A stretch of 64,000 nt of DNA from Prochlorococcus sp. AG-402-L09 (GCA_003216715.1 QCIK01000005.1:1-64000); one strand, 5' to 3'. Positions 59,138 through 63,726 are shown, counted from the first letter of the stretch. Notes: generated from the sequence alone by a model not told the origin. A program made the numbers and translations.

Positions 59138-59306
59138 TAATTTATGGAACCTAAAGCAGACAAGTTACCATTATTTTTTCACAAAAAATAGGTTCTGATG
59201 ATTTGATTTACCGTATGTCTACTTTTTATAACAAGTTTGTTTATTGATTGATATATCATCATTTATTTTGCTTTTATCGCTAAAATTGGTTTTTATCATA
59301 TTACTA

Positions 59307-59624
59307 ATGCAACTCTATTTGGTTGATTGTCAATTCCCTAATATAGAAAATCAAGTTGCAGCCTATAAGCAATTTGTGGAGTTTTGGGAAAATGGAGAGA
59401 TGTCTAAACAAGATAATTTTGATGGATTCGAAATGCTTTTTCGTGTTCATGCTCCTGGAGAAGGACGTGTGGTAATTCTCTGTAATGCAAAAGGAGACAA
59501 GGAACTTTTCTTACACTTTGCTCCATGGAGAGCACAGTTTGGTATTGATATGGAAATTACTCCAGTGATAAGTTGTCAAAACGTAGTTGACTATCACAAG
59601 GATCTCTTTGAAAAGATGTCTTAA
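59307..59624 (+). CDS. DUF3303-like conserved protein
   Basis: MQLYLVDCQFPNIENQVAAYKQFVEFWENGE...; internal ATG at 59307 more plausible than 59244. Confidence 0.6.
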   Translation: MQLYLVDCQFPNIENQVAAYKQFVEFWENGEMSKQDNFDGFEMLFRVHAPGEGRVVILCNAKGDKELFLHFAPWRAQFGIDMEITPVISCQNVVDYHKDLFEKMS

Positions 59625-60114: not shown

Positions 60115-60158
60115 AAGGAAGCCCTCCAGCGTCCCTGGATTAATTAGGTAATAATGAT
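60115..60158. repeat. tmRNA-linked repeat copy R1
   Basis: aaggaagccctccagcgtccctggattaattaggtaataatg; compare R2, R4 and R5. Confidence 0.7.
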
Positions 60159-60229
60159 AGGTATTCGCTTGAATTTTGATTCATCTCTGATTTAATTTAA
60201 GAATTACAAGTAATTAAAAAAAATTAAAT

Positions 60230-60736
60230 ATGCGTAAATTTTTCTTTTTCGTTTTAACTGCGAGCCTTTTAGCGCCTATTGCTGCTATTGCAGATACTTA
60301 TGAAGCACTTTGCAGTGAAAATGATTGCGAAATAACTATTAATGAATTTGGTTTGTCTGCTCCTAACGGTTTTATATCCAAAGATAAAATTAGTCAATGG
60401 TATACAGGAGGAGATGATTACAATCTCGCTTTAGGAACAGCTGGTGGAGCTGCTGGAGGAACAGCTGGATTAGCCGTTGCTACAGCGGCTTGTATGACAG
60501 GAGTATTTTGTCCTGTTGCATTGGCTGTTGGTGTGTTTGGAGGAGGAAAGACTGGATCAAAATTAGGAAAAGGTAAAAATGTATTTTTTACTGTGATGGG
60601 AAAAAAAGATGATGGATCAAATTATGTTCAAAGTTTTAGATTTATCAACAAGAGAACTGCAAAGAAGCTCAAAAAAGAATTAATCCAATTAACTAATTTA
60701 CAAATGGGTCAATTCAGAGAAACGACTTCTTCATGA
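60230..60736 (+). CDS. secreted glycine-zipper protein
   Basis: Signal peptide FFFFVLTASLLAPIAAIA; GGAAGGTAGLAVATAACMTG; paralogous to 33076..33960 N-domain. Confidence 0.65.
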   Translation: MRKFFFFVLTASLLAPIAAIADTYEALCSENDCEITINEFGLSAPNGFISKDKISQWYTGGDDYNLALGTAGGAAGGTAGLAVATAACMTGVFCPVALAVGVFGGGKTGSKLGKGKNVFFTVMGKKDDGSNYVQSFRFINKRTAKKLKKELIQLTNLQMGQFRETTSS

Positions 60737-60782
60737 AAGTCATTTTCAAATAAATTGATTTGTATGAGCTGCTTGAACAAAT

Positions 60783-60830
60783 AAGGAAGCCTTCCAGCGT
60801 CCACGGATCAATTGGGTAATAAGGCTAATT
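60783..60830. repeat. tmRNA-linked repeat copy R2
   Basis: aaggaagccttccagcgtccacggatcaattgggtaataaggct. Confidence 0.75.
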
Positions 60831-60974
60831 TCTAACTAAAAAAGGTTTATCTCAGCTAATCAAATCGATACCATCATTGTCTTGATCGATTCATTTCCTA
60901 GGACTCTTGTATTAATTCAGACTACTCAAATTTTTTGCATTGGATACAATCGAGATTCATACAGTTTCAAATTA

Positions 60975-61418
60975 ATGCTTCAAAAGATCTTCAGCCTTTT
61001 AGCCTGCATGGCTTTCGCCTTGATGAGCAGCTATGCGCCGATTGCTATGGCAGTTGATGAGAAGCCTCCAGTAGATGTACAAGAACTTTTCACAAGCACA
61101 AAACCAATTTATGGAGAGTCTTTCACATACCCAGAAGGCAAAGGGGAAATGCGTCTTTATAAAGTTGATGTTCAACCAGGAGGCGTTGTGCCTCTTCATT
61201 TCCATGAGGCACCATTAACTAGTTTTATCGAAGAAGGTCAATTAACACTGAAGACTAAGAAAGGTAAGAGCACCACTTTCCGGGAGGGAGATTCTTTTGT
61301 TTTATCAGCTGATACTCCTCCTCATACCATGGCTAATAATGGAAAAGTACCAGCAGTGATGTGGGTGACTGTTGCAGCCGCTGAAGGAGTTCCTACACTA
61401 ACGAATGTTGAAGGATAA
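60975..61418 (+). CDS. exported cupin-domain protein
   Basis: ATG at 60975 followed by signal peptide MLQKIFSLLACMAFALMSSYAPIAMA; cupin VQPGGVVPLHFHEAPLTSFIEEGQL. Confidence 0.8.
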   Translation: MLQKIFSLLACMAFALMSSYAPIAMAVDEKPPVDVQELFTSTKPIYGESFTYPEGKGEMRLYKVDVQPGGVVPLHFHEAPLTSFIEEGQLTLKTKKGKSTTFREGDSFVLSADTPPHTMANNGKVPAVMWVTVAAAEGVPTLTNVEG

Positions 61419-61426
61419 TTAGTTTA

Positions 61427-61482
61427 GTTGACAGCCGATTGCTATCGGAACCAGAAGGGCTGACTGAGATCAGTCCTTCTTT
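61427..61482 (+). terminator. double-hairpin 3' module, copy A
   Basis: GTTGACAGCCGATTGCTATCGGAACCAGAAGGGCTGACTGAGATCAGTCCTTCTTTA; hairpins CCGAT/ATCGG and GGGCTGA/TCAGTCC then T-rich. Confidence 0.75.
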
Positions 61483-61603
61483 ATTTTTATGAGACGATTG
61501 AGAATTACTTTTGAAGAGGAATATTGGATTTTTGTGCATCTTTCCTCCCTAATGTTTTCCCGCACATTTTCCCGCAACTTTATTTTTATGATTTTTTGAG
61601 ATT

Positions 61604-61756
61604 ATGAGACTTGTTCTGGCGGAAAGTGCTTGCGTAGATATTTTCAGAATCATCCATGAAGGGGTGGAAGATGCAGCAATGAGGCAAAAACTCGAAGCGA
61701 TTAAAGAGCAACTGGCTTCTCTAGAATGCGCTGGTCCAACTGTTATTGATGCCTAG
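61604..61756 (+). CDS. 50-aa ORF
   Basis: Manual translation MRLVLAESACVDIFRIIHEGVEDAAMRQKLEAIKEQLASLECAGPTVIDA*. Confidence 0.35.
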   Translation: MRLVLAESACVDIFRIIHEGVEDAAMRQKLEAIKEQLASLECAGPTVIDA

Positions 61757-61807
61757 ATTAGATAGACTAGCTAGAATCTTGTGGAATTTATAATTAATTA
61801 TTAGATT

Positions 61808-62449
61808 TTGGATTTTATTTGGTTAGCGTCATATCCTCGAAGTGGAAATTTTCTAATAAGGACAATATTATTTAATTGTTTTAATATTAAAAGTGCTGCT
61901 ATTTATTCTAATGATTGCGACAATAAAAAATTATCAAATTATGTTGGTCATTTAGATCATATTAATCTTGATAATGGGAAGATAAATATAATTTTTCCTG
62001 AAGGTAAACCCAAAATAATTAAAACCCATCAATTACCTAATGATAATAGAAAGACTATTTATATCATTAGAGACGGTAGAGCATCTTTGGTTAGTTTATA
62101 TGAATTTTTTAATAAAGAAGTTCCGTTGAAAACAATAATGGAAGGTAAGACTAAATTTGGTAAATGGTGCGATCATGTTGAATCTTGGGATCCATTGCAT
62201 AGAAAAGATACTTTATTGTTGTCATATGAGGAATTAGACAATGATTTACAATCAAATTTGATAAAAATTAGTGATTTCTTAAAAGTAAAAGTAATTAAGA
62301 ATAAAATTCCTAGTAGAGATGAAATAGCGGCAATAGATGGAAGATGTGTAAGGAAAAAGAGTAATTGGAGGGAAAAAATTAGTCAGGAAGATGTAAGAAT
62401 GTTTAATTTGATTAACCAAGGAACTCTTGCGAAATTCAACTATCTTTAA
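61808..62449 (+). CDS. sulfotransferase-domain protein
   Basis: WLASYPRSGNFLIRTIL (5'-PSB loop), IYIIRDGRASLVSLY (3'-PB motif); TTG start. Confidence 0.8.
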   Translation: MDFIWLASYPRSGNFLIRTILFNCFNIKSAAIYSNDCDNKKLSNYVGHLDHINLDNGKINIIFPEGKPKIIKTHQLPNDNRKTIYIIRDGRASLVSLYEFFNKEVPLKTIMEGKTKFGKWCDHVESWDPLHRKDTLLLSYEELDNDLQSNLIKISDFLKVKVIKNKIPSRDEIAAIDGRCVRKKSNWREKISQEDVRMFNLINQGTLAKFNYL

Positions 62450-62524
62450 GAAATAGTATTAATTTTTGCTAGAGCATTTTTTAAATTTGAATGATATTCA
62501 ATGTTTACAAGTTACAGAATAGCT

Positions 62525-62548
62525 GACTTGGTCAGTCATTTTTTATGG
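62525..62548 (+). terminator. degenerate hairpin 3' module, copy C
   Basis: GCTGACTTGGTCAGTCATTTTTT. Confidence 0.55.
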
Positions 62549-62607
62549 ATATTTGTTCTGAAATTTGTCCTAACTTCGATATTCCTTGAATTGCTGAATT
62601 ATTAGAC

Positions 62608-62672
62608 TCGTTCTACTGGAAAGAGAGTGAGACACTTGCAGGCTTCTTGGATTACTTGAGTAATACGGGACC
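62608..62672. repeat. tmRNA-linked repeat copy R4
   Basis: gactcgttctactggaaagagagtgagacacttgcaggcttcttggattacttgagtaatacgg. Confidence 0.75.
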
Positions 62673-62736
62673 TCAAAGATTATTCATGTTTAATCGGACT
62701 AGTTCAGCTATAACTTGCTGGTATCTCTAGAACTCA

Positions 62737-63168
62737 ATGCGCCGTTTTTTACTTCTTGCACTAACAGCTGGAATTTCTATACCAATAGTTGCTTGTAGTC
62801 CTAAGCAGCAAGCATCCCGTGAACCGGTGGTGGTGGAAACTCTGATTAGTGCAACTGAATCTTGGAATGGAGATTCATTTAAGTATCCAAGAGGGCAAGC
62901 AGAAATGAAACTCGAAAAAATAACTGCTCAACCTGGGTTTAAAACACCTCTGCACTTACATCCACAGCCTGGAATTATTTATGTGCAAAGAGGAACTCTC
63001 TATTGTGAAACTAGTGATGGAAAATCCTTGACAGTAGCTGCTGGAGAAAGCTTTGCTTCATCGCAGGATACAGTTCATTACTGTGAAAATAATGGTGAAG
63101 AAGATATGGTGGTTTTTGTTGCCTCCGCAGGTGCTAAAGGCAAAAAGACAACTGTTACTACTGAGTAA
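62737..63168 (+). CDS. exported cupin-domain lipoprotein-like protein
   Basis: LTAGISIPIVACSPKQ lipobox-like; cupin AQPGFKTPLHLHPQPGIIYVQRGTL. Confidence 0.8.
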   Translation: MRRFLLLALTAGISIPIVACSPKQQASREPVVVETLISATESWNGDSFKYPRGQAEMKLEKITAQPGFKTPLHLHPQPGIIYVQRGTLYCETSDGKSLTVAAGESFASSQDTVHYCENNGEEDMVVFVASAGAKGKKTTVTTE

Positions 63169-63198
63169 ATTAAACCTTTCAATGCTTGAATGAAACTG

Positions 63199-63256
63199 GT
63201 TGACAGCCGATTGCTATCGGAACCAGAAGGGCTGACTGAGGTCAGTCCTTTTTTGT
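63199..63256 (+). terminator. double-hairpin 3' module, copy B
   Basis: GTTGACAGCCGATTGCTATCGGAACCAGAAGGGCTGACTGAGGTCAGTCCTTTTTTG, near-identical to copy A. Confidence 0.8.
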
Positions 63257-63349
63257 GGCTTTGAGACGATAGAGAATTGTTTTTAAAGAGGAATATGGGA
63301 TTTTGCCCTTAACTTTGCCCTTAAGTTGTTTTTGACGATTTTATAAGAT

Positions 63350-63426
63350 CTTGAGACTCTATCTGCGGGAATGAGAGTGAGGCCCTCGCAGGCCTCGTGG
63401 ATCACTTGGGTAATAAGGCTGATCTG
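63350..63426. repeat. tmRNA-adjacent repeat copy R5
   Basis: gagactctatctgcgggaatgagagtgaggccctcgcaggcctcgtggatcacttgggtaataaggctgatc, abutting the tmRNA coding piece. Confidence 0.75.
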
Positions 63427-63640
63427 ACCCCATCTCCGTTAAAAGATCAAGCAGCAACAGGGGCTGTTTGACGGGAGAAACTAACGATGTTGTTAGCAGT
63501 TATGGTTTTGCTCTGACCGAGCAGGCTTCAGTCACTCGCCTGATACCCCGTCGAAGCCATTGCAACCCCATTTTATGGAGCTGAGCGGAATCGAACCGCT
63601 GTCCGAGATATTGGTGTGAATCACCTAGTCCATTAGAAAA
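63415..63640 (-). ncRNA. ssrA: tmRNA, circularly permuted two-piece gene (outer ends approximate)
   Basis: Acceptor piece T-arm AGCGGTTCGATTCCGCT then CAGCTCC-A (ends 63576); coding piece starts GGGGTTG (63569), forming a 7-bp acceptor stem with G3-U70; tag ORF (A)NNIVSFSRQTAPVAA* at 63447-63497. Confidence 0.93.
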
Positions 63641-63726
63641 TAGACAAATATATTCTGACAGATGTTTTGGAATTAATCGATTAGTGTTTAAAGAAGTTTT
63701 TGAGAGTTTTTATTAACTTACAAGTA

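Follow-up and report, generated by a model that had tools for sequence, protein, structure and literature searches.

A tmRNA-anchored array of small gene cassettes in Prochlorococcus

The closest described systems are the ssrA-specific genomic islands of Dehalococcoides (PMC3146451). These are tandem islands downstream of tmRNA, each bordered by a 20 bp repeat of the tmRNA 3′ end, and some units lack integration genes and were suggested to be cis-mobilizable elements joined by accretion. The site is in the T-loop of the tmRNA, and the islands span up to 100 kb and carry a multi-gene integration module discussed with Ccr-type recombinases. Related are the CIMEs (discussed in PMC3146451), elements without integrase that keep attachment sites and could move by enzymes acting in trans, described mainly as remnants of conjugative elements. 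Additive flexible genomic islands have variable gene sets beside serial repeats of a tRNA 3′ end (PMC10872708, fGI-2; PMC5217437); these range from 0.3 to 42 kb with mostly unknown genes, and no shared arm with iterons was described in the accounts consulted. Tycheposons of Prochlorococcus (Hackl et al. 2023, cited in PMC10872708) appear to be elements with a divergent tyrosine recombinase, satellites among them, that insert at tRNA genes, and 7 tRNA genes are mentioned as tycheposon sites (PMC10872708).

Prochlorococcus has streamlined genomes but high gene turnover, and how single genes come and go is not settled. The locus examined here lies within a 64,000 nt stretch of Prochlorococcus sp. 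AG-402-L09 (GCA_003216715.1, QCIK01000005.1:1-64000; the window). Next to the tmRNA gene is a row of small gene modules, each bounded by a copy of the end of the tmRNA gene, and comparison with sister species shows that such modules are gained, lost and reordered exactly at those copies. The attachment site is the coding-piece end of a permuted tmRNA, the units are mostly 0.6–1.1 kb with one gene, and the candidate enzyme is a tyrosine recombinase. In contrast to the CIMEs, one-gene cassettes recur in several orders across a genus. The locus is a miniaturised variant of the tandem islands, CIMEs and additive islands. It provides a mapped site with empty, filled and reordered states, precise borders, a candidate recombinase and candidate binding sites, so that single-gene gain by site-specific recombination in an abundant phototroph becomes directly testable.

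Organisation of the array

The tmRNA gene is permuted, with the coding piece that carries the tag at the 3′ end of the gene, so that R5 is the true 3′ end, with a terminal hairpin. The features of the locus are as follows.

63380-63661 (-): tmRNA gene, permuted, cyanobacterial two-piece type (cyano_tmRNA, RF01851, 297 bits, E 4.6e-86; ARAGORN tag ANNIVSFSRQTAPVAA); its 3′ end is the attachment site
63354-63425 (-): R5, the current tmRNA 3′ end, core plus type C hairpin plus tail, from an alignment of 31 tmRNA ends
63300-63324 (-): R5 right-arm iterons, class AAGGGCAAAA, two at 12-bp spacing (putative integrase arm sites)
62737-63168 (+): cupin gene of cassette K4 (Pfam Cupin_2, 1.6e-12), also found by cassette clustering in a relative, G018
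62604-62668 (-): R4, displaced tmRNA 3′ end, type C hairpin; 80% identity to R5 over 65 nt, 42.2 bits to the tmRNA-end profile
62551-62573 (-): R4 right-arm iterons, class GGACAAAT
61808-62449 (+): sulfotransferase gene (Pfam Sulfotransfer_1, 2.5e-21), cargo of a decayed satellite unit
61604-61756 (+): 50-aa ORF, remnant of the C-terminus of a 156-aa satellite HTH protein of another genome, G030
61588-61624 (-): R3, tail only of a tmRNA-end copy (8.0 bits to the profile), joined to the satellite remnant
61555-61578 (-): R3 right-arm iterons, class GCGGGAAAA, the same class as in G018, G033 and G040
60975-61418 (+): cupin gene of cassette K2 (Pfam Cupin_2, 1.9e-11), the same cassette in at least six relatives; 94% nt identity with G013 and G018
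60783-60830 (-): R2, displaced tmRNA 3′ end, type A hairpin, 47.5 bits
60230-60736 (+): glycine-rich 168-aa secreted-type protein without a Pfam hit, cassette K5, also first in the array of G020 by cassette clustering
60115-60159 (-): R1, the inferred oldest displaced tmRNA 3′ end, type A hairpin, 29.1 bits; border to the constant flank
59304-59624 (+): DUF3303 gene (2.2e-19), constant flank beyond the array, conserved in 29 loci

With up to two mismatches, the core GGATYAMTTRGGTAATAA occurs in the 1.62-Mb assembly only at R1, R2, R4 and R5. In the window it has 6 matches at up to 3 mismatches against 0.72 expected, and none of 100 shuffles reached 6. The preliminary description, which recognised these copies and a truncated one near 61604, is confirmed in its observations, including the distance of 65–145 bp between intact copies and the next likely start codon. 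Its remark that the genes between copies lie on the same strand is true in the window but is not a rule, as some cassettes in relatives face the other way. A second repeat, 106 nt at 89% identity, joins the ends of the two cupin modules (61427-61532 and 63199-63304), and covers the terminator and part of the arm.

Well-preserved copies share the core TATTACCCAATTGATCC. Left of it the sequence changes abruptly to one of a few cassette-specific ends, while right of it comes one of several hairpin types and a tail like GAGTCTCAAGATCTCAAAA. The window tmRNA and R4 have type C, whereas R1 and R2 have type A, so the tmRNA end has been replaced. In G030, the displaced end at +8966 is identical over its 45 retained bases to the current tmRNA end of G024, as expected if a G024-like end was pushed away. 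The end of a two-piece tmRNA is replaced again and again while the tmRNA stays intact.

About 93 nt from the core lie pairs of 11-bp iterons at 12-bp spacing. Of 30 cassette-facing arms, 14 reach 9 of 11 matches at this spacing, against 0–3 of 30 at other spacings and 7 of 1165 random windows. The iteron sequence differs by class (AAGGGCAAAA, GGGGGCAAAA, GCGGGAAAA, GGGCGAAAA, GGACAAAT and AAGCCAAA), and the window array holds three classes. They look like arm-type sites of a lambda-like integrase, although binding is inferred.

The cargo consists mostly of single small genes: cupins, a glycine-rich secreted-type protein, sulfotransferase, PDZ, TM2, PspC, CsgG-like, DUF5672 and methyltransferase proteins. 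Some run with the tmRNA and others against it. Cassette K1, found in relatives, has no Rfam match beyond tmRNA, but encodes a conserved 40-aa ORF (MRTLTYRGNKYTS...) on the tmRNA strand, followed by a terminator-like hairpin (e.g., in G040).

Distribution, empty sites and exchange of cassettes

A profile of tmRNA ends from 31 genomes of the same genus found 30 further copies of at least 15 bits in 20 of 30 usable loci. All 33 hits of at least 11 bits are on the tmRNA strand and downstream, mostly 0.5–1.2 kb apart, while 2.3 Mb of dinucleotide-shuffled sequence gave at most 9.4 bits. Degenerate distal copies can be missed by this search, and the state of G001, G033, G035, G036 and G038 is uncertain. 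Record titles name Prochlorococcus single cells, and G002 appears to have the size of strain NATL2A, so the genus is probably the LLI group. In 38 genomes of 29 other genera of the family, only one clear copy (G053, +3167 to +3228 after tmRNA) and one weak one (G047) appeared. The similarity of the G053 copy begins further upstream than in the arrays described here.

The far side of the array is constant: a small ORF, DUF3303 and a glycosyltransferase. In six relatives (G002, G005, G007, G008, G017 and G031) the tmRNA runs straight into that flank, and the sequence after the tmRNA of G005 and G002 aligns with the sequence after R1 in the window without a break. On a tree of four flanking genes, G005 is the closest relative of the window genome (SH-aLRT 100), so the whole four-unit array differs between nearest relatives. 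G005 keeps one AAGGGCAAAA iteron, and may be an emptied rather than a virgin site.

Clustering of cassette bodies shows K2 before K1 in G013 and G014 but K1 before K2 in G023; K2 before K4 in G018 but K4 before K2 in the window; and K5 last in the window and first in G020. The same cassettes are 93–96% identical between species whose flanking genes are 83–90% identical. The K2 bodies of the window, G013 and G018 are 93–94% identical although their flanking glycosyltransferase genes are 83–84% identical, and K1 of G006 and G040 is 96% identical against 86%. This points to transfer between species, and both the cassette orders and the identity excess reject vertical inheritance with simple loss. 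Hairpin type, emptiness, K1 and K2 change on the flank-gene tree as often as shuffled labels and carry no clade signal, which fits fast turnover but proves nothing alone. The K2 cupin also exists at 94% protein identity at another chromosomal place in G002 (1090895-1091332), with a similar terminator, in a genome whose tmRNA site is empty; this is a possible donor or ancestral copy.

A satellite at the same site and the mode of accretion

G030 holds a ~9-kb satellite at the same site, on a contig that ends in the distal R copy. It encodes a 401-aa protein beside the distal end, an 803-aa DUF3987 helicase/primase-like protein, a 191-aa Phage_integrase protein and a 156-aa HTH protein, and looks like a tycheposon. 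The 401-aa protein has no Pfam hit of its own, but relatives in the genus hit PF00589, and residues R240, K265, R353, H376 and Y385 are invariant in 12 sequences. Its predicted structure (mean pLDDT 77, pTM 0.49) matches XerA, Tn1549 integrase and lambda integrase best, though with low TM-scores. The 50-aa ORF of the window matches the C-terminus of the 156-aa protein (55% identity over 44 aa, E 2e-16 pairwise; E 3.0e-10 in a genome search), so the sulfotransferase unit is a decayed satellite rather than a tiny cassette, and its join with the R3 tail explains why R3 lacks core and hairpin. No divergent site-specific tyrosine recombinase is present in the window array, and the compact cassettes carry no recombinase or other tycheposon hallmark gene; as in tycheposons, insertion is at the 3′ end of a tRNA-like gene, here the tmRNA.

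The preliminary description inferred repeated tmRNA-targeted insertions of tiny integrase-less cargo units, giving an integron-like array without an integron integrase. The core of this interpretation is supported: modules are present, absent and reordered exactly at R copies, and these are displaced tmRNA 3′ ends rather than generic promoters. Attachment-site accretion is, however, a closer precedent than the integron. Integrons likewise have one-gene modules, addition at one end, order shuffling and a recombination site with each module, but no integron integrase (TIGR02249) passes its cut-off in 41 genus genomes, gene orientation is not fixed, and, although no attC search was run, the repeated sequence follows the tmRNA end, a tDNA-type site with iteron arms.

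Serial site-specific insertion at the tmRNA end is well supported, from one genome per species and without any gain or loss seen within a species. In the explanation favoured here, which is likely, DNA carrying the core, its own version of the tmRNA 3′ hairpin and a right arm with paired iterons recombines into the core. The tmRNA receives a working new 3′ end and the old end is pushed downstream as an R copy, so that repeated insertions build a row with the newest next to the tmRNA. Most inserts are compact cassettes with one small gene and no integrase, most probably moved in trans by a tyrosine recombinase made by tycheposon-like satellites that use the same site, and some units are decayed satellites. 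The recombination chemistry, supply in trans, a circular intermediate and the newest-first order are inferred. No excised circle or activity was seen in this sequence comparison, the close homologue of the 401-aa protein was found in one genome only, the window genome shows only one Phage_integrase hit, and the iteron class of the G030 satellite differs from those of the compact cassettes. A possible, still tentative extension is a dedicated minimal-cassette system, in which one-gene cassettes below about 1.2 kb keep only an attachment core, a replacement tmRNA hairpin and an arm of paired iterons of several specificity classes, and are moved between Prochlorococcus species in trans by several tmRNA-specific satellite recombinases. 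It would be an integron-like gene-exchange system built on tmRNA.

Alternatively, each unit may have arrived as a full tycheposon or satellite with its own integrase and later lost its body by deletion, leaving no mobile minimal cassettes. The sulfotransferase unit is such a remnant, degenerate distal R copies are common, and a complete satellite sits at the site in G030. However, K1, K2 and K5 have the same compact extent and left ends in several species and in different orders, with high identity, and independent decay to the same borders is unlikely; decay alone is considered an unlikely account. Spread by RecA-type crossing-over between arrays, using R copies, arms and flanks as homology after an initial site-specific origin, appears somewhat less likely still. 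The same cassette body can carry different hairpin and arm types in different genomes, which suggests some homologous exchange as well, and identity between arms can reach 120–330 nt. Against this, R cores are short and diverged, and the order reversals (K1-K2 and K2-K1) and filling of empty sites need more than exchange between equal arrays. That R copies are only terminator or promoter elements resembling the tmRNA end is very unlikely: types A and B are hairpins followed by a T run, but the copies include the core outside the hairpin, occur genome-wide only in this array, lie only downstream of tmRNA on its strand, and mark insertion borders.

Accretion at tRNA genes and viral sequences

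In the complete genome G006, six of 36 tRNA loci examined (two of them neighbouring tRNA-Pro copies, one weak) have extra copies of their 3′ end within 20 kb that are not explained by a duplicated tRNA cluster. Accretion is therefore not unique to tmRNA there, and similar arrays may exist at tRNA sites. No tRNA genes were seen within 1.5 kb of recombinase relatives, in loci that were short.

Attachment copies were not found in viral contigs by a 20-base exact pattern, nor were relatives of the recombinase or of the 156-aa protein found in viral contigs, or of the 156-aa protein in phages. Synechococcus myoviruses (GU071098.1, 21028-21123; also S-CAM1, S-CAM3 and Sf-FS3) carry a stretch 77–81% identical to the acceptor-piece part of the Prochlorococcus tmRNA, annotated as a hypothetical protein or not at all.
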